Below are positions 2,608 through 32,633 of a stretch of DNA of 46,231 nucleotides, one piece after another. Source of the stretch: an uncultured bacterium (lineage in GTDB: Bacteria > JAAXHH01). Below the pieces are notes generated by a model, which had not been told where the DNA came from, did no database searches, and saw only the letters and a program-made list of their open reading frames with translations. Position 1 is the first letter of the stretch. The number at the start of each line of letters is the position of its first letter. Position numbers and translations under genes: made by a program. Where the stretch lies: the NCBI GenBank assembly GCA_913051705.1, contig CAJXCW010000006.1, positions 1 to 46,231 of the forward strand, written 5' to 3'.

Positions 2608-3363
2608 ATGCCGACCACCCCCCAATGGCGACACTACCATGAACTGCGCCCCGACGAACTGGCTGTCCTGCGTGATGAAAACCCCGTCGCCTTCTGGCCG
2701 CTTGGATTGCTGGAACACCACGGCTGGCACCTGCCGGTCGGTTTCGACGGCATCAAGGCGGAGCGGCTCTGCATCCGCATCGCCGAGCGCACCGGCGGGG
2801 GGATTCTGCCGGTCATGTGGTGGGGAACCGGTGGTGGACACGATGCCTTCCTGTGGACCCACTACCAGCCGCCCGAAGCCGTAGCAGCCATGCTGACGAC
2901 GACCGTAGAGCAGTTGATTGCTTTCGATTTCCGGGTGATTGTCCTCATGGCAGGACATTATCCATGGCAGGGCATTCTGGACGACTGTCTGCCTGCCATT
3001 CAGAATGCCCACAAGGATATCACCTTGCTGTGGGGTACCGAGGCCTCCATCGGCGGGGACGCCGTACCTTTGCCTGGTGATCATGCCGCGAAAGAGGAGA
3101 CCTCCTACGGCCTGGCGCTCTTTCCCGAACTGGTAGATATGGACGCCCTCATGCCCGGCAGAAACGAAGCCGCTGCCTGGCCTGCCGGTCGCATGCCTCC
3201 AGAAGGAGAACGCCATCCCGGCGTCGTCTTCGAGGCGCATGATCCGCTCTTCGCCCAATTCGGCGAGGACGCCCGGCAGGGGTCGGCCGAACGCGGCGAG
3301 GCAGGGCTCTCGAAGTTGGAAGATTATCTGGCCGGTGTGATCCGTGAGGCCATCAAAGCCTAA
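2608..3363 (+). CDS. Creatininase-family amidohydrolase
   Basis: This 251-residue protein has the metal-binding signature of the creatininase family (PF02633): PLGLLEHHGWHLPVGFD with Glu36, His38 and Asp47, GGGHDAF near 76, AGHYPW with His117, and the acidic GDHAAKEETS near 158-166. The family hydrolyses cyclic or linear amides (creatinine, formamides in cofactor pathways) with two divalent metal ions; the substrate here is unknown. A strong AAGGAG lies seven bases before the ATG. It follows the methyltransferase by ten bases and may be cotranscribed. Codons are richer in G/C at third positions than in flanking genes. Confidence 0.88.
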   Translation: MPTTPQWRHYHELRPDELAVLRDENPVAFWPLGLLEHHGWHLPVGFDGIKAERLCIRIAERTGGGILPVMWWGTGGGHDAFLWTHYQPPEAVAAMLTTTVEQLIAFDFRVIVLMAGHYPWQGILDDCLPAIQNAHKDITLLWGTEASIGGDAVPLPGDHAAKEETSYGLALFPELVDMDALMPGRNEAAAWPAGRMPPEGERHPGVVFEAHDPLFAQFGEDARQGSAERGEAGLSKLEDYLAGVIREAIKA

Positions 3364-3431
3364 GGATGTGCCCTGTATTAAATTCCATACGCACCCTGTC
3401 TTAAAATAAAGACATACGTTTCAACGCCCCG

Positions 3432-3457
3432 AAATATAGACTTCAAAGCCTATATTT
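3432..3457. other. AT-rich hairpin downstream of the creatininase gene
   Basis: The arms AAATATAG and CTATATTT enclose a ten-base loop about 70 bases after the creatininase stop. It may help end transcription, but no T-run of useful length follows. The remainder of 3364-3627 shows no gene that I can support. Confidence 0.35.
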
Positions 3458-3627
3458 TAGCGGCATGTATAGTTTTAGCTACATCATTTCCTGCCGGACT
3501 GGATTGGTCGCTGACCTTCCGGCCATTTGTTTATGGTCATCAAGCGCTTTAGCCTTGATGTTGGCACAGGGTTTGCCTTTACTCAGTAGAAGTATAGTGG
3601 TCGAAATGCTGCGAGTACGGAGCCGAT

Positions 3628-5123: not shown

Positions 5124-6383
5124 TTAAGAATGTTCCATCTTTGTTCTCGGGGCCATCACCCTTCCCATCACCTCTCCGAAACCCACTTGATACCCATCCC
5201 CCTGCGCCCAACCCGTGATCGTCAGGCGGTCGCCATCCTGGAGGAATTTGCGGGTTTCACCGGTGGTCAGTTCAAGTGGATTTTCGCCGCGCCAGGTGAT
5301 TTCCAGCATGGAGCCGTAGGTGTCAGGCGTGGGGCCGCTGAGGGTGCCGGACGCCATCAGGTCGCCGGGGCGCATGTTGCAGCCGGTGATGGTATGATGC
5401 GCGAGCTGCTGAGCGATATGCCAGTACATATATTTGAAGTTGGAACGGGCAATGGACATCGGTTCCGTCATGGATTCGCTCTGTAGAAGTACTTCCAGAT
5501 TGATGTCGTACGCCTGATCACCGGCATGGTCCAGATACGACAACGGCGCCGGATCCTGAGGCGGCGCGGCGCAGAGGAACGGCTCCAGCGCGTCCAGGGA
5601 GACCACCCAGGGTGAGATGGAGGTAGCCATATTCTTGGCCAGAAACGGGCCGAGTGGCTGGTATTCCCACCGCTGAATGTCCCGCGCGCTCCAGTCGTTT
5701 ACCAGCACCATTCCGAAAAAATGATCTGCGGCCTGATCGACAGGAATGGGCGTGCCCAGATCGTTGCCGGTTCCGATAAAGTACCCCATCTCCAGTTCGA
5801 AATCCATCACCCTGCTCGGAGCCAGGACCGGCGGTCCGTCCTCCGGCTTGATCTGTCCGTACGGACGGTAGACATCCGTGCCGCTGAGCACCACCGAACT
5901 GGCCCGGCCGTGATAGGCCACCGGGATATACAACCAGTTGGGCATGAGCGCGTTGTCCTTGCCCCGGAACATGGTGCCCATGTTGGTCGCATGTTCCTTT
6001 GAGGAATAGAAGTCCGTATAATCACCGATTTCGACGGGCAGGTGGAGCGTCACATCCGCCACAGGCGTCAGCGCATTTCGGCGCATTTCGGCGTGGTCAC
6101 GCAACGTCGGGTTATCCGAGGCCAGCAGCTCCTGAAGTCGTGATCTGACGGTGCGCCAGGCCTCCCGCCCCTGCGCCATAAACGCATTCAAGGAAGACTG
6201 TGCGAACACGGATGGCTGCGGGAGCAACCCGGCCGCTTCCAGCACGGAAAGATCCAGCACATACGTCCCGATCCGTACCCCCACGCGTGGCGTTCCGCCA
6301 TTCGTGCTGAACACCCCGTAGGGCAGATTCTGAATCGGAAAGTGCGAATCGGCAGGAACCTCGATAAACGATGTAAGCGTCAC
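5124..6383 (-). CDS. fahA: Fumarylacetoacetase
   Basis: This 419-residue protein cleaves fumarylacetoacetate to fumarate and acetoacetate, the last step of tyrosine/homogentisate breakdown. It is co-linear with known enzymes: N-terminal SH3-like part (NLPYGVFS, then PRVGVRIGTYVLDLS), DYTDFYSSKEHATNMGTMFR with the catalytic His and metal Asp, LPVAYHGRASS-like WLYIPVAYHGRASSVV, metal ligands in DFELEMGYFIG and VNDWSARDIQ, and the C-terminal MASGTLSGP. Length matches the family. It starts with GTG at 6383, preceded by AAGGAG at good spacing. It lies 39 bases downstream of another minus-strand gene, likely an operon. Other tyrosine-pathway genes are not in the window. Confidence 0.96.
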   Translation of the reverse strand: MTLTSFIEVPADSHFPIQNLPYGVFSTNGGTPRVGVRIGTYVLDLSVLEAAGLLPQPSVFAQSSLNAFMAQGREAWRTVRSRLQELLASDNPTLRDHAEMRRNALTPVADVTLHLPVEIGDYTDFYSSKEHATNMGTMFRGKDNALMPNWLYIPVAYHGRASSVVLSGTDVYRPYGQIKPEDGPPVLAPSRVMDFELEMGYFIGTGNDLGTPIPVDQAADHFFGMVLVNDWSARDIQRWEYQPLGPFLAKNMATSISPWVVSLDALEPFLCAAPPQDPAPLSYLDHAGDQAYDINLEVLLQSESMTEPMSIARSNFKYMYWHIAQQLAHHTITGCNMRPGDLMASGTLSGPTPDTYGSMLEITWRGENPLELTTGETRKFLQDGDRLTITGWAQGDGYQVGFGEVMGRVMAPRTKMEHS

Positions 6384-8817: not shown

Positions 8818-11388
8818 TTACGAGATTATTTCGCAATACACGGAAAAGCCCGGCGCAACAACAATCTGTTTCACCTCGGCCGGCACGATGACCTTGAACG
8901 TATGATATCTGGTCGTATTCCAGATGACCTTCTCGATGGTTGTGCCGTCTTTCAGCTCAAAGTGTATCGGTACCATCGCCTTGAAAATCCGGCCGTCCTG
9001 CTCTTGCGTAATCGTACATTGAATGCTGAACTGGTTGTCCGGCTGTTTCAGACTGGTATAACTCGACCGGTACACCGGATAACCGGTTCCTCTGAGCCAC
9101 TGATCGAAAAACCAGTCCATATCCTGTTTCATCACATCTTCAGCCACCCGTTTGAAGTCGGCGGTAGTCACCAACTGTTGGCGTGAATCCCGGTAGAAAT
9201 CAGACAGGATTTTGTAGAATTTTTCATCCCCGGTGACCTGGCGTAACATGTGCAGGACCATAGCCCCCTTGTCATACACCACCGGTTGAAAAAATTCCTG
9301 TAACCTCCGACCTAAAATGATGGCGCCCTCTTTATCTGCCTGCTTTGCCGCATGAGTATGGGATTTCAACATCTCATGAAATTGATCCTGGCCGATCATA
9401 TTTTCGATAAACAGGTCGGCGGCATACGTCGCCATGCCTTCCGACAGCCAGGCATCCCTATAGGTCCTGGGTATCACGACATTGCCCCACCACTGATGGG
9501 CCAGCTCATGGGCTAAAAACCCTTTGAAAAACTGCTGCACATTGAAGTATTTATTGACGGACAGATCCCGACCCAGCAGATAATCACTCCGAAAATAGAG
9601 TCCCCACAACATCAACATCGTCGGCAACCCCTGCCCGAATTGATAATCATCCGGCATCTGGACGATATCCAGCTTCTTGTACGGATAGTCGCCGAAGGAT
9701 TTGCTGTAAAACGGCAGGGTCTCGTCTATTAATTGGAGGATCTCCTCTTCCCGTGATGCGGACTTCGACAGGTCCTTATCCATGTACACTGTTACATCAA
9801 CATCGCCGGTCCGGGAAGTTAAGGTCCGGTGCTCGGAGAACGTCAGCCCGAGCAGGGTTGTCGGCCGAGGCGCGTGCCAGCGGGAGACCCTTGTGTCGCC
9901 CTCCTCGTATTCCAGTGTTTTTACGCCGGTCGTGATGGACGTCATCGATTTCGGCACCCGCATTTCCATGTCGAACATAAACGCGTCCCGATTGGAATGT
10001 TGAGGCAACCATTGTTCGTTGCGTAATGGCGTGAAGAAGGAATTGTTTACCTTACGAACCATATCTCCTTCATACCAGAACGTCAGCCTGGTACTCTGAT
10101 CCTTGCGGAGCGGTTCAAGCAGCGGAACGGATATGAACGAGCCCTGTTTTATAAGCAAAGCGCCTTCCCCATCGGCATAGGTGACACGCCGGATATCGAA
10201 ATCGGGATTAAGCATAAAGGTCAGCGTCCAGACGGAATCTTCCCTGGCCGTAACGTTGATGACCGTTTTCAGCTTAAGATGTTTCTTGTTATCTGCCAGG
10301 ACCCCCTGGATAAGATAGCTATGTATATTCAATAAAGCCGTACTTGACGGCGCTTTCGCCGCCACGCTATCCGCCTGTTGTTTTTGCGTACCGGGGAAAT
10401 GGCACCAGAGGATCGGCGCTTTCAGGTTGAAGTTACGCGGAAAGCCACTCTTCTGGGTCAGGCTTACCTCCTCCAACTCGAATGGATTATACGCGTAAAC
10501 CAACCACTGGGTGGTGCCGGCCCTGTCGAATTCAGCCCGGAGATAGTCCGGATGCGAAGGCGCGAACGACCATGCTTTCTTACTGGGCTGGATTTTCATC
10601 ATATAGTCTTTATCAACCCGTTTCAAAAGCACTTCGGCGCGTTTGAACACACGGCCTTTTTTTACCGGCTCAAGATCAACCCCATCGATCAGATCGGCAT
10701 AGCCGCCCGGTGAGACAAGCAGAACCATCTGCGTAAATTCCGTCGTATATTGCGCCCCTTTATTCCCGGCGTATTTATTTAACTGCTGGCGTTCTACACT
10801 GTTGGCCGGTGTAAAGGAGAACCGCCCTTGACCGAACAGAACAACGCGGCCGATCTGTCCAGCGGCATAGGCCGGCATCAAAACGCCGTCCGTGATATGA
10901 AATTCGGCGGAATCGCGACGGATAGTCAGGGTGTCAAACGCAAAGATTTCGTCTTTTCGCGGTCGAAATCGGTCGCCTACATGCGTCTTAATCAATGTTT
11001 TATACCGCTTTGGTGTCCATCGTTCTTCTTCCTGCTCAAAGTAAATCTTCCAGAGCTCGGCGGAGAGATGATCTTCTTCCTCTATAAACACGCTCAAGTT
11101 GATCTCCGGGCGGGTCAGCACGCTGTCCACCATCAGATTCGTGTGCAGTCTGATCTTCGCATCCGTATACCGTTCAGCCAGCGGCAGATCGCCTTCTTCC
11201 AACATCTCCTCAAGATCAACCGCATCCACGCGCTTATCTTTCAAAAGCTTATACGCCTGCTTCAAACCCCTTTCGATAGCCGTGCCGTCGATGCGCTGCG
11301 CCTGGTCTGCGGTCGCAACAGGCGAAGAGAAAAGAGAGAGTGCCAGGCAAACGGCGGGAATTAAAAACCACCGACGGGAATCTATCAT
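8818..11388 (-). CDS. Exported M1-family (gluzincin) metallopeptidase
   Basis: This 856-residue protein has a signal peptide (RRWFLIPAVCLALSLFSS, then PVATADQA|QRID). The zinc site is HELAHQWW (His627, Glu628, His631) with the third ligand in WLSEGMATY (Glu650), the HEXXH-X18-E pattern of M1 peptidases. The exopeptidase GxMEN motif expected about 30-40 residues upstream is not seen; that position reads FGQGLPTMLML. It may therefore differ from true aminopeptidases. About 380 N-terminal residues precede the M1 beta domain and are unassigned. AGAGGA precedes the ATG. It is convergent with the TPR gene, 45 bases apart. Confidence 0.88.
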   Translation of the reverse strand: MIDSRRWFLIPAVCLALSLFSSPVATADQAQRIDGTAIERGLKQAYKLLKDKRVDAVDLEEMLEEGDLPLAERYTDAKIRLHTNLMVDSVLTRPEINLSVFIEEEDHLSAELWKIYFEQEEERWTPKRYKTLIKTHVGDRFRPRKDEIFAFDTLTIRRDSAEFHITDGVLMPAYAAGQIGRVVLFGQGRFSFTPANSVERQQLNKYAGNKGAQYTTEFTQMVLLVSPGGYADLIDGVDLEPVKKGRVFKRAEVLLKRVDKDYMMKIQPSKKAWSFAPSHPDYLRAEFDRAGTTQWLVYAYNPFELEEVSLTQKSGFPRNFNLKAPILWCHFPGTQKQQADSVAAKAPSSTALLNIHSYLIQGVLADNKKHLKLKTVINVTAREDSVWTLTFMLNPDFDIRRVTYADGEGALLIKQGSFISVPLLEPLRKDQSTRLTFWYEGDMVRKVNNSFFTPLRNEQWLPQHSNRDAFMFDMEMRVPKSMTSITTGVKTLEYEEGDTRVSRWHAPRPTTLLGLTFSEHRTLTSRTGDVDVTVYMDKDLSKSASREEEILQLIDETLPFYSKSFGDYPYKKLDIVQMPDDYQFGQGLPTMLMLWGLYFRSDYLLGRDLSVNKYFNVQQFFKGFLAHELAHQWWGNVVIPRTYRDAWLSEGMATYAADLFIENMIGQDQFHEMLKSHTHAAKQADKEGAIILGRRLQEFFQPVVYDKGAMVLHMLRQVTGDEKFYKILSDFYRDSRQQLVTTADFKRVAEDVMKQDMDWFFDQWLRGTGYPVYRSSYTSLKQPDNQFSIQCTITQEQDGRIFKAMVPIHFELKDGTTIEKVIWNTTRYHTFKVIVPAEVKQIVVAPGFSVYCEIIS

Positions 11389-11428
11389 AATTATCCTCTA
11401 CAGAGTTGACGGACGATCTTGTAATGCC

Positions 11429-12297
11429 CTATGGTCGAATGTCTCCAGGCACAAACGATGTCTTACCATCTACCGGTACCTCCACCGGAACGACCATCAA
11501 GGTATTCGTTTCGGAATCGACGAAGAACAGCTCATCATTTCGGCTACTCCATTGGGGATATATACCGCCATTTACCGAAACCTGAATAGTCCCTTTACCT
11601 GAGGGAAACTGGACTACAGAAACGTCAAAACGACCAGACGACCAGACGCGTTCGAAGAATATGCCACGTAATCCCCGTCTGGTGAGAGCCTGGCCGAATT
11701 GATACTGTATCGTTCACGAAGAAAACTTACTTGTCGGTCAGGGGCGGAAAGCTCAATATACGAGATGTCGTAATAGCCGGTCGTATCCGTTGTTCTAAAT
11801 ATAATATATTTGCCGTCCGTTGACCAATGTAGCAGTGATACAGTTGCAGAGGTAGTTACTATCAAGGGTTCAGGCGGCGACCTACCGTCAACGGATCGTT
11901 TATACAGGTCTCCTCCCAACAGGCTCTCTGAAGCGGTCTGGAAAATGATCTCCTCGCCTGAGGGTGACCAGGATGGAGACCAGTCTTTAAATTGATCATC
12001 AGGGAGCCTGGTTTTTGTGCCCCGGTTAACATCGTGGATCTAGATATCGACATCTTCTTCCTTGCCCTCTATCTGCTCGGGAGACATGTACGACGGCGTA
12101 CCCATGAAATTCTTACCCTGCGTCAGACTCGGTAGGCCGTCCTCTTCCACCATCGTCACCGTGGGTGCTTCACTGTCCACTGGTTCCGTTTCCTCACGTT
12201 CGATACGGGCAAGACCAAAGTCCAGTATCTTGGGGACACATTCTTCTGTAATCATGATATTTGCGGGCTTTAAGTCCCTGTGTACGCGACCATTTTC
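11429..12297 (-). pseudogene. Ser/Thr kinase with C-terminal beta-propeller, multiply broken
   Basis: From right to left: the kinase catalytic loop [19 protein letters not shown] and [14 protein letters not shown] (12250-12060), then an abrupt step to WD40/TolB-like propeller blades (IHDVNRGTKTRLPDD, WSPSGEEIIF, HWSTDGKYIIF, LSPDGDYVAYSSN, FPSGKGTIQVSVNGG) ending at a TAG at 11429. Lesions: the N-lobe and 5' end are absent; the kinase C-lobe and linker are deleted; a TAG replaces the tryptophan codon of the DIWIHDV-like segment; and an eight-base tandem duplication near 11636-11651 shifts the frame after SSNASGR. The 5' edge abuts an ABC-F remnant on the opposite strand. Confidence 0.85.
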
Positions 12298-13028
12298 TGG
12301 ATCGGACCGTGGCACGGATTCTTGAGCTCCGGCGCGGTCAACTGCGGCTATATACTGGTAATTATACCAATTATGCAGCAGCGAGAAAGCAGGAGGAAGA
12401 GAGCGCCTGGGCGCAATACGGACGGGCTGGTAAAGAGGTACACATGTTACGGGGCGCCGTGGGCGAACGTAAGCGGATGGCACGAAAGGTGCACGGTAAC
12501 AAGGCCACTGCAGGCGCCAGTGCAGATTTTTATGCACGAAAAGCATCAAAGGAAATGAAACGGGCCAAAGCCATAGGAAGAAAAGTAGAACAGCAGCTCG
12601 AACAACAGAAAACAGCTAAACCCTTTGTGGAAAAACAGACCATTCTGGATGAAGCGATGTTCGTCGGTCCGGTAGACGAAACCTGGGCACGTATGGTTCT
12701 CGGCACCTTGCTGTTACGGAGAAATAAGGTACACGATCAGATAAACGTTTTAAGTATCGGCGAGCGGGGTAGAGTCGCCCTGGAAAAATTGTTGCTTTCC
12801 GGGGTCAATATACTGGTACTGGATGAACCGACCAACCATCTGGACATAGATGCCAGAGTCGCCTTGGAACAAGCGCTGGAAAATTATCCCGGCACCATTA
12901 TTTTCATCTCCCATGATCGCCGGCTGATCGAATATCTGGCCGATACGATCCTGATGATAAAAGAAGGTCAGATTCGGTATTATACAGGTAAATATATGGA
13001 GGAAATGTGGAGCAGGTATGATGCGTAA
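12291..13028 (+). pseudogene. ABC-F ATPase remnant lacking both Walker A motifs
   Basis: The frame enters mid-domain at [20 protein letters not shown], the end of the first nucleotide-binding domain, continues through the charged ABC-F linker ([14 protein letters not shown] and on) and then jumps to the second domain at FVGPVDETWARMVLGTLL. It keeps a signature-like LSIGERGR (consensus LSGGE) and Walker B LVLDEPTNHLD, then ends FISHDRRLIEYL. The first domain's Walker A and B and the second domain's Walker A are missing, so it cannot hydrolyse ATP normally. The frame is otherwise open, pointing to fairly recent loss or to block deletion. ABC-F proteins normally act on ribosomes. Confidence 0.85.
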
Positions 13029-13029
13029 G

Positions 13030-13056
13030 AAAATCATATAAAAATCATAATTGAAC
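13030..13056. repeat. AAATCATA word array after the ABC-F remnant
   Basis: Two variants of AAATCATA occur directly after the stop codon of the ABC-F remnant. The same word family is seen in the 13440-13526 array on the far side of the MerR gene. Confidence 0.45.
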
Positions 13057-13068
13057 AATCAACCTGGC

Positions 13069-13431
13069 TTACGAGTTCAGTGTCGCCTGAATACCAAGTA
13101 ATTCGGATCGTAGCCATGAGACAAGTTCAGATTCTGTTATGGGATCGGCGATCATCTTCTCAACCACTTCATGACCCGGCTTGTGAGATAATTCATGGAG
13201 CTTCTTCTTTGCACCGGCGATCGTATACCCCTCATCCCGCGTCAACCGTTTGATCTCCTGGATCAGCTTAATATCCTTTTCGCGATACATCCGGTTGCCC
13301 GCCCGATTTCTTTTGGGCCGTAACTGGCTGAACTCTCTTTCCCAGAACCTCAGTACAGAAGGCTCCAATTCCAGCATATCCGATACCTCACTACTGGAGT
13401 AATACAACTTTCCCGACAGTCCATTATTCAT
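13069..13431 (-). CDS. MerR-family transcriptional regulator
   Basis: This 120-residue protein has an N-terminal winged helix-turn-helix: YYSSSEVSDMLELEPSVLRF, then WEREFSQLRPKRNRAGNRMY, and a second helix REKDIKLIQEIKRLTRDEGY. The short C-terminus (IAGAKKKLHEL and on) has no metal-binding cysteines or clear ligand domain. It belongs to the small MerR-like regulators common in FCB bacteria, and the target is unknown. It lies downstream of der on the same strand, separated by an inverted AT-rich word array, so it may be transcribed separately. Confidence 0.88.
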   Translation of the reverse strand: MNNGLSGKLYYSSSEVSDMLELEPSVLRFWEREFSQLRPKRNRAGNRMYREKDIKLIQEIKRLTRDEGYTIAGAKKKLHELSHKPGHEVVEKMIADPITESELVSWLRSELLGIQATLNS

Positions 13432-13439
13432 ACCTGACC

Positions 13440-13526
13440 ATCCCTGTTAAGGTGATTGTTGAATTATAAATTATGATTGATTTTCAATCACCTAATCATA
13501 ATTCATAATTCAAGAATCATAATTCA
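13440..13526. repeat. AT-rich word array with inverted arms at the der 3' end
   Basis: Variants of ATTATGATT and ATTATAA on the left (13450-13485) are followed by the reverse-complement words (AATCATAATTCATAATTC and variants) on the right (13487-13526). The array reaches into the TGA stop codon of der (13524-13526). The transcript of der could fold these arms into a long imperfect hairpin before merR. Confidence 0.75.
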
Positions 13527-14852
13527 ATCCCTCCCATCTCTTCCTCTGATCAACACCCGGATGGGCGTACCGTCGAAATGGAAGTTTTCACGAAGCTGGT
13601 TTGACAGATACCGTTTGTATGATTCCGGAATCGCATCCGGATGGTTGACAAAAAATACGAACGTGGGCGGGGCGACTCTGACCTGTGTACAATAGAAAAC
13701 CTTTGTCAGGCGTCCTTTGGATCCGGAAGGTGGTGGATAATAGGCGGTGATGCCTTCCACCACTCGGTTCAGTTCGCCCGTAGGCACCCGCATGACGCAC
13801 ATTTTTTTAACCTGATCAACTTTATTCAGAAGCTGGGTCACGCCACGTTTGGTAAGGGCGGATAAAAACATGACCGGGGCGTAATCGACAAAACGGGCAT
13901 ACTCCCGGGCTGCGGCCAGATATTCATCCCCGGAAGCCTCGGTTGTATCAACTAAATCCCATTTATTGAAAGCCAGAATAAGACCTTTACCAGCTTCATC
14001 TACCTGGGATATGATTCGCATCTCCTGGGTGGCAATACCTTCTATGGCATCCACGAGAACCACCGCTACATCACAGCGTTCCAGACTGCGTACGGTGCGC
14101 GTAAAGCTATAGAACTCAATATCACTCGATATACGGGCACGGCGACGCAGGCCTGCCGTATCGATCAGAATATAGGGGACGCCATGCCGGATGATCTTCG
14201 TATCGATCGAGTCGCGGGTTGTGCCGGGAATATCCGAAACGATCACTGTCTCTTTGCCTATGATGGCATTCACCAGGGACGACTTACCTACATTAGGTTT
14301 GCCGATGACGGCGATTTTAATAGCATCCGGCTCCTCTTCTTCCGGCGCCGGTGGTGCAGCAGGCATCCGGTCGGCCATCATGTCGAGCAGATCCCCGGTG
14401 TTTCGTCCTTTCAAAGCGGAAATCATCACCGGTTCGCCCAGGCCGAGCGAGGCAAATTCATAGGCATGGTTTTCCTGAGCGCCGCTGTCCACTTTGTTGG
14501 CCACGATAATGACCTGCTTGGAAACCCGACGGACTACTTCAGCGGCTTTTTGATCCAGAGGCGTCACCCCTGCCCGTACATCCACCACCAGAAGGATGAT
14601 ATCGGCCTCGTTAACCGCCATTTGCGCCTGCCGCTCAATGGCAGACTCCATGGGCTCGTCCGAATCCGGTACCAGCCCGCCGGTGTCAACTATTGTGAAC
14701 TTTTTCCCGAACCAATCCGCCTCCGCATAATGGCGGTCGCGGGTAATGCCCGGCGTATCATGTACAATGGCGTCACGACGACCAAGAATCCGGTTGAACA
14801 ATACGGATTTCCCGACGTTGGGACGGCCTATGATAGCAACAATTGGTGGCAT
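13524..14852 (-). CDS. der: GTPase Der (EngA), ribosome assembly factor
   Basis: This 442-residue protein has two tandem GTPase domains and a C-terminal KH-like domain, the diagnostic Der architecture. G1 motifs are GRPNVGKS (residues 8-15) and GKPNVGKSS (near 183). G3 motifs are DTGG and DTAGL, and the G4 motifs are NKVD and NKWD. It acts in late 50S subunit maturation. The start ATG at 14852 has no good ribosome site. It follows the DUF512 gene on the same strand with 62 bases between, and the last codon and stop run into an inverted word array. Confidence 0.97.
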   Translation of the reverse strand: MPPIVAIIGRPNVGKSVLFNRILGRRDAIVHDTPGITRDRHYAEADWFGKKFTIVDTGGLVPDSDEPMESAIERQAQMAVNEADIILLVVDVRAGVTPLDQKAAEVVRRVSKQVIIVANKVDSGAQENHAYEFASLGLGEPVMISALKGRNTGDLLDMMADRMPAAPPAPEEEEPDAIKIAVIGKPNVGKSSLVNAIIGKETVIVSDIPGTTRDSIDTKIIRHGVPYILIDTAGLRRRARISSDIEFYSFTRTVRSLERCDVAVVLVDAIEGIATQEMRIISQVDEAGKGLILAFNKWDLVDTTEASGDEYLAAAREYARFVDYAPVMFLSALTKRGVTQLLNKVDQVKKMCVMRVPTGELNRVVEGITAYYPPPSGSKGRLTKVFYCTQVRVAPPTFVFFVNHPDAIPESYKRYLSNQLRENFHFDGTPIRVLIRGRDGRD

Positions 14853-23597: not shown

Positions 23598-23928
23598 GGT
23601 CTGTTTCCTTTTACCAAATACATAAAGGATAAAATCTCCTGGTGCAGAGCATCAGCCATGGTAGTCAAAATAAGACCAAAACGTCAAGCAAGAACTGAAA
23701 GGGACAGGGTGGAAAGGACGAGAAAATTCTTGACACAGGCGTCTAAAATCGTATATTATCACCTAAGTTTTGAAGGAAATATACCACATTCGACATCGTC
23801 AGGGGTTCGCATATATATCATTAGCTAGGGATTTATGTTCGTTAAAGTTTTTAATCTGTTTAAGAAGGTATCGTTGGTAAAGGGTGAAAACGATACAAAC
23901 GAGCAAACCCGATGCGTGATAGGTGAAG
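23598..23928. other. Divergent intergenic region between phzF and porU
   Basis: This stretch of about 330 bases has no supported gene. It contains the upstream region of the phzF-like gene (ribosome site near 23605) and the porU promoter near 23730. The porU leader is about 165 bases. Confidence 0.5.
23730..23759 (+). promoter_or_regulatory. porU promoter
   Basis: TTGACA (23730-23735) is followed after 16 bases by TATATT (23752-23757), or after 18 by TATTAT. The same layout, TTGACA-N16-TATATT, is found before porV at 28087. Confidence 0.6.
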
Positions 23929-26900
23929 ATGTTGAAACGGCAATTGCCGGATAGCCTTCCGAAAAATATTGGATCAGGGTATCTGTTTTTTTTTCTAAGC
24001 CGTTCATCTGTAACCCTGGCGATTTTTTTATGTTTTGTCGCCCCTTTTTTTTCCTCCCTGTACGCATCCACTCAAGTTGACCTGCATGTGTTACGATCCG
24101 ATATAACGGGCGTGACATTTGAATATGTACCGACGCCGGTTCGTCATGATACGGTGTCCCTGAGTGGAGAGCCGTTCGACTTGTTGTCCATTGACCAGTG
24201 TACATTGACCTCGGAACCGGGGCATCCTCAGTTACCGAAGCGGTATGTTCTGATCGGCTTACCGCCCGACGCCAGACCCTCTGTTACGGTACTGGAAGCG
24301 CCTTTTCGATCCGCTCGGGGCTATCGTTTAGCACCAGCGCCCCGGATGGATACGGACGGTCTGAGCTATGCCCTTGATCAAGAGGCCTATAGCTCAAATA
24401 CTATGCGCCCGGTAAACCGTCTCACGGTGGATACGCCGGGGATGATGCGTGGCCATAGCGTCCTGCCGATCGCCCTCTCTCCCGTCGCCTACAGTCCGGC
24501 GGATGGACGTGTAAGATTATATGATCGTATTCGCGTCGATATCCGTTTTAACGCGTCGGAGATCACCACGCCCTTGAGCGGTTGGAGAGGTCCTGACCGG
24601 TTGAATTCCGTTTTTGAACAGTCTGTTCTTAATGCCCGTACAGCGGCTGCCTGGCAACGATTCGGCACAGCCAACCCACCAGCAACGCGGATATCACCTT
24701 TTGGCCCCGGAACCTGGTACAAAGTGAATATAACAGAAGACGGTATGTATCGTATTAACCGGCAATTATTACAAGACACCGGTATCAATGTTGATGGGTT
24801 AGATCCCCATACCATGCGCATGTTCCACGGCGGCGGGCGTGTCCTTCCACAGGATGTGGATTCTCCGCGGCCGTCCTTGAAAGAAATAGCCATCCAGGTA
24901 GAAGGCGAAGCAGACGGTCGTTTTGATGAGAACGACCATATTTTATTTTACGGCACAGCCTTGCATGGCTGGGATTTTTTGCAGACCCTGCGGACCTATC
25001 TCTTTTTTAATAATCCATATACGGATACAAACGTGTATTGGCTGTCCATCGGCGGCACAATACCCGGTAAACGCATGGGGATTCGTGATGGGCGGATCGC
25101 TGGTGGCGTAACACAAATAGATACGCCCGTCAGACGTCGTGAAGAACGGGAAATCCTCAATCCGATCAACTCCGGAACAACCTGGTTCTGGCAACTGTTC
25201 GACGGCGCCTTTCGTGAAGAGGTAACCTTCGCGGTGGACCTGGGAAATGTGGCTCGTAGCGGCCAGGTTACCGCTCGATTCCGATTTCAAAGCAAGACCC
25301 GATTTGCGCACCACGTTCAAGTATTTATCAACAATACCTTCGTGGGCGAACGCATCTGGTCCGGTGAATCTGTCTCAGTAGAATTGTCGGAGACAGGTAA
25401 CTGGCTGCAGGATGGCGTCAATGAAATTCGGATCGTATTGCCGAGGAATAACAGCACAGCAAACCAGCCGGACCATGTGTATTTCGATTGGTTTGAATTT
25501 GCATACCGGGCGCCGATGGATACCTCTGAAGGAACGCTGACCTTTGAGCAGGATCTGCAGGCTGCCGGGCCATTTGTTCGTTATCAGGTAAGCAGCGCCC
25601 CGGCTGATGCCGAAACATTCGATATAACCGATCCGTTTCAGGTAACGCAGATGACGACCGAGCTCGGCAGTGGCTTCAGGGATTCGGTACGTACGATTCC
25701 CACGCAGTATATTCTGGTCACTCCGGAGCAAGGGAAACAACCGGTGTCTCTCTTTCAGGATGCGGATTCCGATCTGCGCAATGTCAACAACGGCGCCGAC
25801 TACATTATCGTCGCCCACGACAGCTTTATCGACGCGGCAGAGAAGTTGCGCGCACATCGCACTGCTTATTCCGGTATGCGGGTGACTGTAGCGAAAACCT
25901 CCGATATCTATGATGAATTTTCCTGGGGGCTGTTCGATCCGACGGCCATCAGAGATTTTCTCCGATATGCGGGGTTGAACTGGTCGTCAGGATCACCGCC
26001 GGCGTTTGCCTTGTTGCTGGGTGACGGCAACTTCGATTACAAAAACCATTCCCGCAACAGTCCCGGTCTCTGGGTACCGCCGTTCGAACAGGGTGATCGC
26101 TGCACTGACGACTGGTTTGTGTATTTCGACGGCAACGGCGACCCGCTCGTAGAAAATGATATTTTTCCGGATATGGCCATCGGCAGACTGCCAGCCCAGT
26201 TGCCCGTGCAGGCAGACATTATGGTCCGTAAGATTATAGATTATGAATCCGCCCCCGAATTCGGTGTCTGGCGTAATACGATTGTGTTGACCGCAGATGA
26301 TGAAAACACGCCGGGCAGCACGTTCGCAGAGTTGTTTCACACCACCGATTCAGAGCGTCTGGCAGACCGGCATCTCCCTCGGTCTTTCCGTGCTGAGAAA
26401 GTCTACCTGACCCAATTCCCTCTGGATGCCGCAGGTGAAAAGCCGGGGGCGAGAGATGCGCTGATCAATCATATCAACGACGGCGTCCTGTTGGTTAACT
26501 GGGTAGGCCACGGCGCCGCCAATCTCTGGGCACATGAGCGTGTATTCAATACCAGCCGGGATTTACCGTCTCTGAACAACGGCAACAAGCTGCCGGTGTT
26601 CGTGACGGCGACATGCACAGCGGGCCGGTTTGATCTGGTCACGGAAGAAGCCATGGCGGAAGATTTTTTACGCGTGGAAGGGAAAGGCGCTGTGGGTTTT
26701 GTCGGGGCGACGCGCCTGTCGTATCCCCATCCGAATGCCGTGCTTAACAGAGCACTGTTCGACGGGATGTTCCAGCAGAATTTGACCATCGGCGAGGCGC
26801 TTCTACAGGCCAAAATACGTACCGTGGATCGGACAAACAGTGAAAAATACATCTATTTCGGCGATCCCGCTATGCGTATCGGCAAACCGAAACAAGCCAT

Positions 26901-27921
26901 CCGATTTACAGAGGTCGTCGATACGCTGCGGGTCCTTCATGTCGCTGAAATTCAGGGCGAGGTCCTGCAGGATTCAACGATAGACCGGTCGTTTTCCGGC
27001 TCGGCGTTTGTTCGTACATCCGATTCAGCCCAGGAGGTAACCTATACTGCTTCTCTGGGCGGACAGGTCCAATATCTATTGCCCGGCGCGGACGTTTTCC
27101 GGGGGACGGTATCGGTGGATCAAGGTCAATTTTCCGCTTCGTTTATAGTACCCAGAGACATCACTTACGGCGGTAATCAGGGACGTATCGCCGTCTATGC
27201 GACGGATGGGCGCAGCGATGCCGCCGGCGTCATCGAACGGTTGCCGTTACGCGGCGCTGACCCGGCCTTTCAGGATTCAACAGGTCCGGAGATTGAAGTC
27301 CTGGTAGACGGCAGGCCCTTCACCGATGAGGATTATACCTCTCCTACACCGACGTTGACCATTAACCTGTTCGACGAAAGCGGTATAAATATTACGGGAG
27401 AAGTCGGTCATCAGATTACCGTTCAGACCGATCGGGATGTAAAAACGAGACAGGATGTAACGAGTCGGTTTACCTATGACAATAATAGTTTTACACGTGG
27501 TAGCCTTCAGGTGCAATTGCCGACGCTGACGGCCGGCGATCATCCGTTGACCATTAAGGCGTGGGACAACTTCAACAATTCCGCCACCACGTCCCTGATC
27601 GTGTCGATCGTAGAAGATATGGATCTCCGCATTACCGATGTGATGAACTATCCAAACCCGTTCGATGGTCCGACGACATTTACATATCAGTTAACCCAGG
27701 ACGCAGATATAACGATTCAGATCTATACGGTGGCAGGCACCCGAGTTCAAAGGTTCGACCTGATCGGATTTCGTGGATTTAATCAAATCGACTGGGATGG
27801 TCGAGATCAGGATAGCGATCGGCTCGCAAACGGCGTTTATCTCTATAAAATCACCGCCCGGTCTCATGCAGAGGAACGTAAGACCACCGCCATATTTGGA
27901 CGGCTGCTTGTGGTACGGTGA
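23929..27921 (+). CDS. porU: PorU-like C25 (gingipain-type) cysteine peptidase, T9SS sortase
   Basis: The protein is 1330 residues from ATG 23929. A signal peptide (TLAIFLCFVAPFFSSLYA) precedes an N-terminal propeptide-like region and a GTWYKVNITEDGMYRI segment typical of PorU. The C25 catalytic domain carries ADYIIVAHDSFIDAAEKLRA, LLGDGNFDYKN, the catalytic His861 (NWVGHGAANLWAHE) and Cys896 (TATCTAGRFD). It ends with a propeller/FlgD-like tail (NYPNPFDGPTTFTYQL, then YTVAGTRVQRF), of the kind used for T9SS targeting. In Bacteroidetes PorU removes substrate tails and attaches LPS at the cell surface. The next gene is porV, its known partner. The role in this phylum is inferred. Confidence 0.9.
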   Translation: MLKRQLPDSLPKNIGSGYLFFFLSRSSVTLAIFLCFVAPFFSSLYASTQVDLHVLRSDITGVTFEYVPTPVRHDTVSLSGEPFDLLSIDQCTLTSEPGHPQLPKRYVLIGLPPDARPSVTVLEAPFRSARGYRLAPAPRMDTDGLSYALDQEAYSSNTMRPVNRLTVDTPGMMRGHSVLPIALSPVAYSPADGRVRLYDRIRVDIRFNASEITTPLSGWRGPDRLNSVFEQSVLNARTAAAWQRFGTANPPATRISPFGPGTWYKVNITEDGMYRINRQLLQDTGINVDGLDPHTMRMFHGGGRVLPQDVDSPRPSLKEIAIQVEGEADGRFDENDHILFYGTALHGWDFLQTLRTYLFFNNPYTDTNVYWLSIGGTIPGKRMGIRDGRIAGGVTQIDTPVRRREEREILNPINSGTTWFWQLFDGAFREEVTFAVDLGNVARSGQVTARFRFQSKTRFAHHVQVFINNTFVGERIWSGESVSVELSETGNWLQDGVNEIRIVLPRNNSTANQPDHVYFDWFEFAYRAPMDTSEGTLTFEQDLQAAGPFVRYQVSSAPADAETFDITDPFQVTQMTTELGSGFRDSVRTIPTQYILVTPEQGKQPVSLFQDADSDLRNVNNGADYIIVAHDSFIDAAEKLRAHRTAYSGMRVTVAKTSDIYDEFSWGLFDPTAIRDFLRYAGLNWSSGSPPAFALLLGDGNFDYKNHSRNSPGLWVPPFEQGDRCTDDWFVYFDGNGDPLVENDIFPDMAIGRLPAQLPVQADIMVRKIIDYESAPEFGVWRNTIVLTADDENTPGSTFAELFHTTDSERLADRHLPRSFRAEKVYLTQFPLDAAGEKPGARDALINHINDGVLLVNWVGHGAANLWAHERVFNTSRDLPSLNNGNKLPVFVTATCTAGRFDLVTEEAMAEDFLRVEGKGAVGFVGATRLSYPHPNAVLNRALFDGMFQQNLTIGEALLQAKIRTVDRTNSEKYIYFGDPAMRIGKPKQAIRFTEVVDTLRVLHVAEIQGEVLQDSTIDRSFSGSAFVRTSDSAQEVTYTASLGGQVQYLLPGADVFRGTVSVDQGQFSASFIVPRDITYGGNQGRIAVYATDGRSDAAGVIERLPLRGADPAFQDSTGPEIEVLVDGRPFTDEDYTSPTPTLTINLFDESGINITGEVGHQITVQTDRDVKTRQDVTSRFTYDNNSFTRGSLQVQLPTLTAGDHPLTIKAWDNFNNSATTSLIVSIVEDMDLRITDVMNYPNPFDGPTTFTYQLTQDADITIQIYTVAGTRVQRFDLIGFRGFNQIDWDGRDQDSDRLANGVYLYKITARSHAEERKTTAIFGRLLVVR

Positions 27922-29207: not shown

Positions 29208-29381
29208 TCCAACCACTCAAATGTGTGATATCACTCATATTATTGTCATATGAAGCACCATATTTACTGTTTCACGACTTTGAATCCGTAATCCCCAACC
29301 ACATAGTGCTCGATGTGTCCCCGTAGGGGATCATCCATCTTAAATCCACAATTGATATTACGCCCGCCCCGGGATCTATTA

Positions 29382-32300
29382 GTGCATCCAATTTTTTCCT
29401 CTCGTTTCCAAATAGCTTTCACACTGATCGTTTTGACCGGTTTATTTCTCCCTTTTATTGCAAGGGCTCAGGTCATACCTATCCGACGCGTGGATAGACC
29501 GGATGAATCGATTCAAGCCCATCCTCTTTTTCGAAATCATCAAGTCTCCAGGCGGAACCTCCTACAGATAGACCGGCCGACGCCATACAGCCTACCCCTG
29601 CCCAAACCGATCCAGGCCGGAATGCAAACCGTCCGTATTCTGGCCATCCGGGTTGACTTTCCTTCTGATGCCATGGAGAGTACGACAGGAAATGGCCAGT
29701 TCGATTATCGGACGCCGGAGCAGTTTGAGCAGGAAGAAGGCCATGTCATCGACCAGGCGCCGCATGACCGGCTTTATATTGAACGGCACCTGGAGGCGAT
29801 GAAAGCGTACTATGATGTCGCCTCGTTCGGCCAATTGCAATTGACGTATCGCGTTGTGCCCAATGGTCTTCAGACGACCTATAACCTGCCGAACCAGATG
29901 GCCTTCTACAGTCCGGACGTGGATTTCTTCGATCCGCTCAAAGTCGATCGGCTGGTGATCTTCTTGAGGGACGCCTTCGTCGCTGCCGATCAGGACCCGT
30001 CCATCACCTTTGCCGATTACGATGCCTTTATCGTGTTTCATGCCGGTTCGGATTTACAGCATGACCGGCTGCAAAACAGCCCGAGTGATCTACAGACCGG
30101 TTTCCTCCGGATCGGAGATGATCGGCCGCCGATCATCGTCGACGGCAATAAAGAAATTCGTGAATTTATCATGATGCCGGAGACCACTTCGCAGGATACC
30201 AATATCGGGGCGCTCAATACGTCCCTCACGCATGAGTTCGGTCATCAGCTTGGATTACCGGATTTATACAGTACCTTCAATCAGGCGCCGGGCGTCGGCG
30301 CGTTCGATCTGATGGACCTGGAGAGTGGGACAGTTAATGTAGGGGAGGCAGGAGAGCAGATTGTTTCCGGCGCGTTACCTGCAGGTCTTGGCGCCTGGAG
30401 CCGCGCCTTTCTCGGTTGGCTCACACCGGTAGAGGTTTCCAGCGATTCCGTGGATGTGGACCTGATTGCTTCCTGGCTCGACGGCAGCGGCGTAAAGGCG
30501 GTTAAAGTGCCTATCGCCCCCGGTGAATATTTTCTTATTGAAAACCGGCAGACGGACCTGGACGGCGACGGTGTCGCTTTTCTTAATTTTCAGAACGGTA
30601 TTATCGTGGGCCCGTCCGACGCCAACAAGCAACCGAACCGGGAATACGACTACCTGCTGCCCGGCTCCGGCGTCCTCATCTGGCATGTGGATGAGAATGT
30701 GGCCTTCGGTGATTTTAACCAGAGCGGCGAGAGCAACTGGATCGAGAATGCATTGCAATGGGATGAGCTACATCGGTTTGTCGATGTGGAAGAGGCAGAT
30801 GGCATTCAGAATTTAGGATTTACGACCGAGGCGGTCCGGGCTGAAGATCTCTTTTATACCGGTAACAACGGGGTGTTCGGGCCATCGACATCACCTGATA
30901 GCCGTCATTATTCCGGGGGCAACAGCCACGTTACGATCCGCATACGCAGTGTCCCGGCCTTGAATATGCGCATCAGCGTCGCCGTGGCGCATGCCCGGCA
31001 GGGCTGGCCCATGGCCCTGGGCGGTCCAGCCGGAACCCATGCGCCGGTCTTGACGGACGTCAACGGAGATCGCTTTCTGGAAACCTTTATGGCTTCCCCC
31101 GATGGCCGGTTGTACGCCTGGCAGCACGACGGCGCCCGGCTCATATCGAATACAGAGGTTGTCAAAACAGTAAGTTTTACAGGAGACACCCTGACCGGGC
31201 CGGCCGCTGTATTTGCTGAATCGGCCGGTTCCTTCTTTACCGCACCCGTAATTGCAGATCTTGAAGGGGATGGGACGACCGACATCATCACGACCGACGC
31301 AGAACAGGTGTTTGTCTTCACGCCGATAGATGCCGACAATGATGGCCGGGGAGACCTTAAACCCGGTTATCCGATTCGGTTGATCCAGCCGGTGACAGGC
31401 GGGCCGATTCAAACCCAAACTGCCGTCTTGAACGCGCCGAGACTCTTCCGGCTCGGTAATGGTACATTTGGCATCGTAGTCGGTACTTCCACAGGCGGGT
31501 TGTTCGCGTTTGAACCCGACGGTACGGTCCGTTTTTCAATCAACATCTCTCGAAACATAGACGATCGCATGACCGTACCGCCGACCACCGCTGACCTGGA
31601 TGGAGATGGGCTGGACGAACTCATCGTGGTGCTGGCCTCCTCCGGTGGGGGAAGAATACAGGTTGTCAATTTATCAGGACTCACCCTGTGGACGCAATCT
31701 ACTGGCCTTCTCGGACGGTCATCGACCCCGCTGGTCGCGGATATCGATGGCGATCAATCTTTCGATGTCGTGGTGGTTGGCGCTGATGGACAGGTGAATG
31801 CCTGGACAGGTACAGGCGAATTAAAACGGGGATGGCCGGTCAGCCTGGGATCCGAGATCGGCGGACCGCCGGCTGCAGGCGATATCGACGAGGACGGATT
31901 GCCGGAGATTATTGTGTCGGGAAACAACCAGCTCTTTGCGCTTCACGGCAACGGAACCAGCGTCGGCAATTTCCCGATTATTATTGATCGGGTGAACCCG
32001 ATCGGCCTTATTGAATCGTCGCCTGTTATCGGCGATCTGGATGGGGATCGCGTCCCTGAAATCGTAGTCGGTTTGCCGAACGGCTCTTTAGCAGGCTATC
32101 ATGCGGATGGTAGGCAGGTAGATGGTTTTCCCCTGGGGACCAGCGGTGCGATTTCTTCAACACCGGCGCTGGGTGATCTTACCGGTAATGGAGATATCGC
32201 CGTAATAATTGGATCGGATGATGCTTTTGTCCACCTATGGACATTTCGAGGCAACCCGGACGCGCTTCCCTGGCCGATGCTGGGTCATGATGCACGACGA

Positions 32301-32633
32301 TCCGGCGCTGCAACGGCCGTGACTCAACCTCCGACGCCCGGAAGCGGCGATCTACTGGCCTCTTCATCCGTGTTCTGCTACCCGAATCCGGTTAACGGTG
32401 GTTCTGCCGGCATCCGATACAGGTTGAATCGTAATGCAGATCAGGTTCGTATTCGCATCTTTACATTAACAGGCAATCTGGTGGAAGAGTTATCAGGATC
32501 GGCGATTCAGAACCAGAATGAGGTAAAATGGAACGTCAGCCGAGTTGTCAGCGGCATATACCTGTGTCAGGTAGAAGCCCGCGATGCCACCGGCGTTCAG
32601 ACCCTGTTCTGCAAAATCGCCGTGGTAAAATAA
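29382..32633 (+). CDS. Secreted M6-type metalloprotease with FG-GAP repeats and T9SS tail
   Basis: The GTG at 29382 (GGGA upstream) gives a clean signal peptide (FQIAFTLIVLTGLFLPFIARA|QV); the frame is open from an ATG at 29313, whose added residues look non-native. The M6 zinc site is His284, Glu285 and His288 in LTHEFGHQLGLPDLYS, followed by AFDLMDLESG and GLGAWSRAFLGWL as in immune inhibitor A-like enzymes. Residues of about 560-1000 carry FG-GAP/VCBS-like units (LTDVNGDRFLETFMAS, ADLDGDGLDELIV, GDIDEDGLPEIIVSGN, GDLDGDRVPEIVVG) with Ca-binding DxDGDG turns. The C-terminus (YPNPVNGGSAGIRYRLN, then FTLTGNLVEEL) looks like a T9SS type A sorting domain. It is therefore probably a substrate of the PorU/PorV system encoded just upstream. 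Confidence 0.88.
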   Translation: MHPIFSSRFQIAFTLIVLTGLFLPFIARAQVIPIRRVDRPDESIQAHPLFRNHQVSRRNLLQIDRPTPYSLPLPKPIQAGMQTVRILAIRVDFPSDAMESTTGNGQFDYRTPEQFEQEEGHVIDQAPHDRLYIERHLEAMKAYYDVASFGQLQLTYRVVPNGLQTTYNLPNQMAFYSPDVDFFDPLKVDRLVIFLRDAFVAADQDPSITFADYDAFIVFHAGSDLQHDRLQNSPSDLQTGFLRIGDDRPPIIVDGNKEIREFIMMPETTSQDTNIGALNTSLTHEFGHQLGLPDLYSTFNQAPGVGAFDLMDLESGTVNVGEAGEQIVSGALPAGLGAWSRAFLGWLTPVEVSSDSVDVDLIASWLDGSGVKAVKVPIAPGEYFLIENRQTDLDGDGVAFLNFQNGIIVGPSDANKQPNREYDYLLPGSGVLIWHVDENVAFGDFNQSGESNWIENALQWDELHRFVDVEEADGIQNLGFTTEAVRAEDLFYTGNNGVFGPSTSPDSRHYSGGNSHVTIRIRSVPALNMRISVAVAHARQGWPMALGGPAGTHAPVLTDVNGDRFLETFMASPDGRLYAWQHDGARLISNTEVVKTVSFTGDTLTGPAAVFAESAGSFFTAPVIADLEGDGTTDIITTDAEQVFVFTPIDADNDGRGDLKPGYPIRLIQPVTGGPIQTQTAVLNAPRLFRLGNGTFGIVVGTSTGGLFAFEPDGTVRFSINISRNIDDRMTVPPTTADLDGDGLDELIVVLASSGGGRIQVVNLSGLTLWTQSTGLLGRSSTPLVADIDGDQSFDVVVVGADGQVNAWTGTGELKRGWPVSLGSEIGGPPAAGDIDEDGLPEIIVSGNNQLFALHGNGTSVGNFPIIIDRVNPIGLIESSPVIGDLDGDRVPEIVVGLPNGSLAGYHADGRQVDGFPLGTSGAISSTPALGDLTGNGDIAVIIGSDDAFVHLWTFRGNPDALPWPMLGHDARRSGAATAVTQPPTPGSGDLLASSSVFCYPNPVNGGSAGIRYRLNRNADQVRIRIFTLTGNLVEELSGSAIQNQNEVKWNVSRVVSGIYLCQVEARDATGVQTLFCKIAVVK

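Follow-up and report, generated by a model that had tools for sequence, protein, structure and literature searches.

The 1.7-kb interval between an M1-family metallopeptidase gene and a MerR-type regulator gene (positions 11389-13068 of the window) is very probably a non-functional relic field formed by ordinary gene decay through deletion. Two relics meet head to head in it: one, on the minus strand, comes from a Ser/Thr kinase/PD40-propeller gene, and the other, on the plus strand, from an antibiotic-resistance-type ABC-F gene reduced to its 3' half. The damage to this interval comprises at least four deletions, one nonsense codon and one frameshift, and includes a scrap of a second kinase gene. 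The window, a stretch of 46,231 nucleotides, is the whole of contig C6 of genome G000, which belongs to an uncultured Latescibacterota bacterium and is an incomplete assembly of 5.45 Mb in 405 contigs with 5.7% contamination; the comparison set consisted of 16 genomes of the phylum Latescibacterota.

Locus layout and flanking genes

Both flanking genes are intact and lie on the minus strand. The M1 peptidase gene (8818-11388, 856 aa; Pfam Peptidase_M1, E=2e-30), whose orthologs are 61% identical in G001 and 54% in G014, served as the gene-order anchor, and the MerR-type regulator gene (13069-13431, 120 aa; MerR_1, E=1.9e-19) adjoins it in G001 and in genomes of genus g3. Directly 3' of the ABC-F stop, a repeat search detected a partial copy (13033-13062) of an AT-rich palindromic dispersed repeat, which is represented more fully at 13453-13527 with 26-nt arms that are 92% complementary and a DNA fold z-score of -5.4. 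G000 contains about 50 matches to this repeat, whereas a single weak match in G001 is practically all that the family members show. It was rejected as a marker of kinase relics, since a copy lies within 1 kb of 3 of the 21 relics, where about one would be expected (Poisson P=0.10). Elsewhere in the window, the regions 23923-27921 and 29313-32633 encode a C25 (gingipain-type) peptidase that includes its propeptide and an FG-GAP-repeat protein. Both are large and end in Por-type sorting domains, which suggest a type IX-like secretion route in the lineage.

Kinase-propeller relic

The minus-strand relic consists of two parts. A fragment running from the kinase catalytic loop to the activation segment (12052-12297; VHRDLKPAN...DFGLAR) matches Pfam Pkinase with E=1.2e-12, only over profile positions 117-173 of 263, and is about 49-59% identical to the intact kinases of the g3 relatives. 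It is followed by part of a PD40/TolB-like propeller (11433-12039; PD40, E=1e-5), which is truncated at the C-terminus and carries a frameshift at about 11638, its two frames being matched successively by the G005 and G011 kinases. A TAG stop (12040-12042, minus strand) occupies the site of a propeller Trp codon, where the relatives read LWLYD and the relic I(stop)IHD. Measured against the g3 kinases, the catalytic-loop part keeps about 73 residues and the propeller about 190, the latter in two frames. The N-terminus has lost about 137 residues, about 440-470 more are gone between the catalytic loop and the propeller, and the C-terminal end is missing. A functional Ser/Thr kinase combines a Gly-rich loop, a catalytic Lys, HRD and DFG in a single open frame; here the HRD and DFG motifs are retained, but the N-lobe is gone and the frame is stopped at 12040. 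Descent from a Latescibacterota kinase-propeller gene is evident in the loop and propeller fragments, which match the G005, G011 and G013 copies in order. Genes of this type are found in one copy in genus g3 and in several copies in G014 and G015.

Past the propeller end and directly before the peptidase start codon, a second Ser/Thr kinase gene is represented by its N-terminal tip (11394-11432, minus strand), which is absent from the first-pass annotation of this DNA. The tip, IGHYKIVRQLCRG (IGHYKIVRQL), corresponds to the start of the glycine-rich loop region; it was first spotted by eye and scored afterwards, and it ranks first of the 60,564 13-mers of the window against 13 kinase N-termini (31.9 versus 17.7 for the next). 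A relic on contig C58 of the same genome has the comparable tip TKIGHYKIIHALGKGGMG. Since this tip is present besides the loop-propeller relic, two kinase copies are represented in the block by scraps, a remainder of the kind that a tandem pair would leave. Kinase copies do occur in tandem on one strand in the more distant genome G040 (C281, C295).

ABC-F relic and the probable time of its death

The plus-strand relic (12291-13028) was delimited by alignment with the intact 565-aa ABC-F protein of G014, to which it is 63-69% identical. It corresponds to residues 223-341 and 436-561 and forms an open frame without a start of its own. Residues 1-222 and 342-435 are missing, the second loss being an in-frame deletion of 94 aa (282 bp) that includes the second Walker A motif. 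At the join of this internal deletion (12636-12641, plus strand) the sequence CAGACC fits both edges, with a short C-GAC overlap. The linker and the signature, Walker B and switch His of an ABC-F-type second domain (LSIGE, LDEPTNHLDID, SHDR) are kept and mark the frame as a descendant of an ABC-F gene; the ABC_tran_Xtn match is weak (E=9e-4). A functional ABC-F protein has two ATPase domains with a Walker A motif in each, and here both Walker A motifs are gone.

The relic comprises 245 codons free of stops and frameshifts, and this could hint at residual use despite the missing Walker A and start. One may thus ask whether the frame encodes a shortened protein that is still in use, for example a linker plus half-domain. 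Besides the open frame, the in-frame character of both deletions and the coding-like substitutions would agree with such a protein. It would, however, lack the whole first ATPase domain as well as both Walker A motifs, its first in-frame ATG is codon 62, the relic-specific changes are in mild excess, and the short form is kept in no relative. We consider a surviving short protein quite improbable, and a dead gene remains our preferred reading of the frame.

The substitutions bear on when this death occurred. Compared with G014, codon positions 1 and 2 (p1, p2) of the ABC-F relic have changed far less than position 3 (p3): the ratio of (p1+p2)/2 to p3 is 0.39, versus 0.30 for Der, 0.32 for MerR and 0.51 for M1. 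Relic-specific changes number 10-17 and G014-specific changes 6-11, a mild excess seen against all eleven outgroups, although the counts are small and the outgroups non-independent. Because the substitution pattern is coding-like and the excess of relic-specific changes mild, the sequence fits a late death of an ABC-F gene that had been functional for the greater part of its existence.

Head-to-head junction

The first-pass annotation had described the kinase loop VHRDLKPAN (minus strand) and the ABC-F block HFLDRTVAR (plus strand) as meeting within about ten bases, with the 5' part of each gene absent and with internal deletions in both. Each element of this description agrees with the alignments. 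Both homologies are real and overlap by eight bases at 12290-12297 with no filler between them; the overlap, CCATTTTC, fits the kinase (E-N-G, minus strand) as well as the ABC-F protein (H-F, plus strand). The kinase is without its approximately 137 N-terminal residues and the ABC-F protein without residues 1-222, and the internal losses of about 440-470 residues and 94 aa complete the picture. Short sequence overlaps are thus present at two deletion joins of the locus, 12290-12297 and 12636-12641. A genome-wide search for the missing 5' parts yielded just distant ABC-F paralogs (43%) and other kinase relics; neither gene has an intact copy elsewhere in the genome.

A single rearrangement had also been proposed as the cause of this arrangement. 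For the junction this explanation stands in part: the simplest cause would be a single deletion that took both 5' ends, which is in keeping with the short overlap and would account well for the join alone. It is insufficient for the locus as a whole, where no fewer than four deletions have to be explained together with the nonsense codon, the frameshift and the scrap of the second kinase.

Gene order in related genomes

In G001 and in the g3 genomes checked, all of the same family as G000, the M1 and MerR genes are direct neighbors separated by 160-340 bp, and no convincing trace of a kinase or ABC-F gene was found in these gaps in G001 and the sampled g3 genomes, apart from one weak stray match in the G001 gap. 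The kinase gene of g3 sits at an unrelated locus. In G014, a member of the same order, the intact ABC-F gene is divergent from M1 at a distance of about 390 bp, with the side and orientation that the relic has in the window and with no kinase between them; it is followed by a copper-type P-type ATPase gene (named from its translation). G015 has M1 followed by the same P-type ATPase gene, without ABC-F. In both G014 and G015 the MerR gene is on a different contig, beside a glycosyltransferase-like gene. The G014 ABC-F gene is flanked on contig C259 (L094) by short inverted TAGGGGCG-type repeats (3183-3601 and 5300-5373), as if it lay in a repeat-rich or once mobile segment.

The relatives thus give a mixed answer on the former adjacency of the two decayed genes that the single rearrangement implied. 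ABC-F adjoins M1 in G014 without a kinase, the kinase homologs are found elsewhere, and none of the 16 phylum genomes has an intact kinase gene divergent from and adjacent to an intact ABC-F gene. The former adjacency is therefore presumed. The M1-ABC-F order common to G014 and the window is most likely inherited; ABC-F would have disappeared from the other lineages and been half removed here. G014 is the only relative that keeps the gene. A peptidase tree intended to order these losses joins long branches with only moderate support and was set aside. With one relative that keeps ABC-F, a ruin in G000 and none in the rest of the family, the locus offers a clean comparative example of gene decay.

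The same gene orders bear on a sequencing join error at 12290, which the first-pass annotation had named as a possible objection. The 405 contigs and 5.7% contamination of the assembly would speak for a misjoin of two contigs. The genes on either side of the join, M1 and MerR, are nevertheless true neighbors in the same family, and ABC-F stands beside M1 as in G014, so that an artifact would need to reproduce a genuine gene order. We regard an assembly artifact as extremely improbable.

We propose that the M1 peptidase gene and a divergent ABC-F gene were neighbors in an ancestor of the order. In the window's lineage, one or more Ser/Thr-kinase/PD40-propeller genes would have come between them, and several independent short-overlap deletions, a nonsense mutation and a frameshift would have eroded the kinase and ABC-F genes. 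One of these deletions may have run from the kinase gene through the divergent intergenic region into the ABC-F gene, taking the 5' end of each and creating the join at 12290. Taken as a whole, an eroded kinase and an inherited ABC-F gene reduced by several deletions form a highly likely history of the locus; its presumed steps are a former side-by-side arrangement of two intact genes, kinase and ABC-F, the sequence in which the deletions occurred, and a short-overlap deletion as the origin of the join.

Alternatively, a kinase fragment or an already broken kinase block could have been inserted in place of the ABC-F 5' region, the junction being the edge of the insertion. The arrangement in G014, where no kinase separates ABC-F from M1, would suit this origin, as would the plentiful broken copies, with kinase relics at about 20 places in the genome. 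On the other hand, no source copy is seen: the relics are unlike one another in DNA sequence (66-90% over short stretches) and similar kinase DNA was not found elsewhere in the genome. A plain insertion would also leave the ABC-F 5' part beyond the kinase, and that part is absent. Insertion is accordingly an unlikely origin, and erosion of resident genes by deletion is preferred.

Decay of the kinase-propeller family across the genome

About 20 other kinase-propeller relics are scattered over G000 (for example on C14, C58, C76, C106, C278, C312 and C333), according to a census based on homology searches with few queries and on selected contigs. A full-length g3 kinase-propeller query gave 14 matches at E<=1e-10 in G000. 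One is a distant kinase (29%) in a 986-aa frame, and the open frames of the others do not exceed 375 aa; a full-length copy of the query type was not found in this incomplete genome. Each g3 genome, in turn, has one full-length kinase-propeller gene, that of G012 being split over two contigs. A few of the short kinase frames lie near contig ends and most are interior. In several relics, as at C76:4585-4990 and C106:5899-6595, the N- and C-terminal tips are joined across a large internal deletion. A kinase relic of N-terminal and C-terminal tips close together is also present at G014:C80:15922-16378, so this tip-to-tip decay extends beyond the window's genome.

Five of the six Pfam Pkinase matches in G000 are fragments, whereas in the control family ABC_tran the frames are short or broken for about 5 of 85 domains. 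Coding density is 0.83-0.87 in G000 versus 0.86-0.92 in the relatives. General genome decay was rejected on account of this near-ordinary coding density and the contrast between the two domain families, and for the same reasons the decay looks family-specific. With moderate confidence, given few queries, one control family and an incomplete genome, we attribute it to the kinase-propeller family. Whether the whole family of propeller-linked Ser/Thr kinases died across G000 while coding density stayed ordinary is close to an even question, and we advance it tentatively. If true, it would point to a family-specific release from, or selection against, such signaling in one lineage. About 20 dead copies beside living relatives with at least one intact copy provide a chance to study the loss of a bacterial signaling family.

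Comparison with known systems

The minus-strand relic has the same domain order as Ser/Thr kinases fused to a PD40/TolB-like propeller and resembles them at the level of identity given above for the loop fragment. It differs from the intact genes in having a stop and a frameshift and in the deletion of half of the propeller and the greater part of the kinase domain. The closest known family for the ABC-F relic, through its alignment with the G014 counterpart, is the ribosomal protection-like ABC-F family NF000355. The intact G014 protein passes the family cut-off of 380 with a score of 510.8, whereas the relic, which has lost the second Walker A along with the first ATPase domain, scores 182 (E=1.5e-53), below the cut-off.

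Bacterial pseudogenes are eroded by deletions; our literature search on this erosion gave no useful source. The locus shows the same kinds of damage, with a nonsense codon and a frameshift accompanying truncated genes and internal deletions while the neighbors stay intact and conserved, and the short overlaps at two of its joins are also alike. It does not depart from bacterial pseudogenes in any respect, the head-to-head join being incidental.
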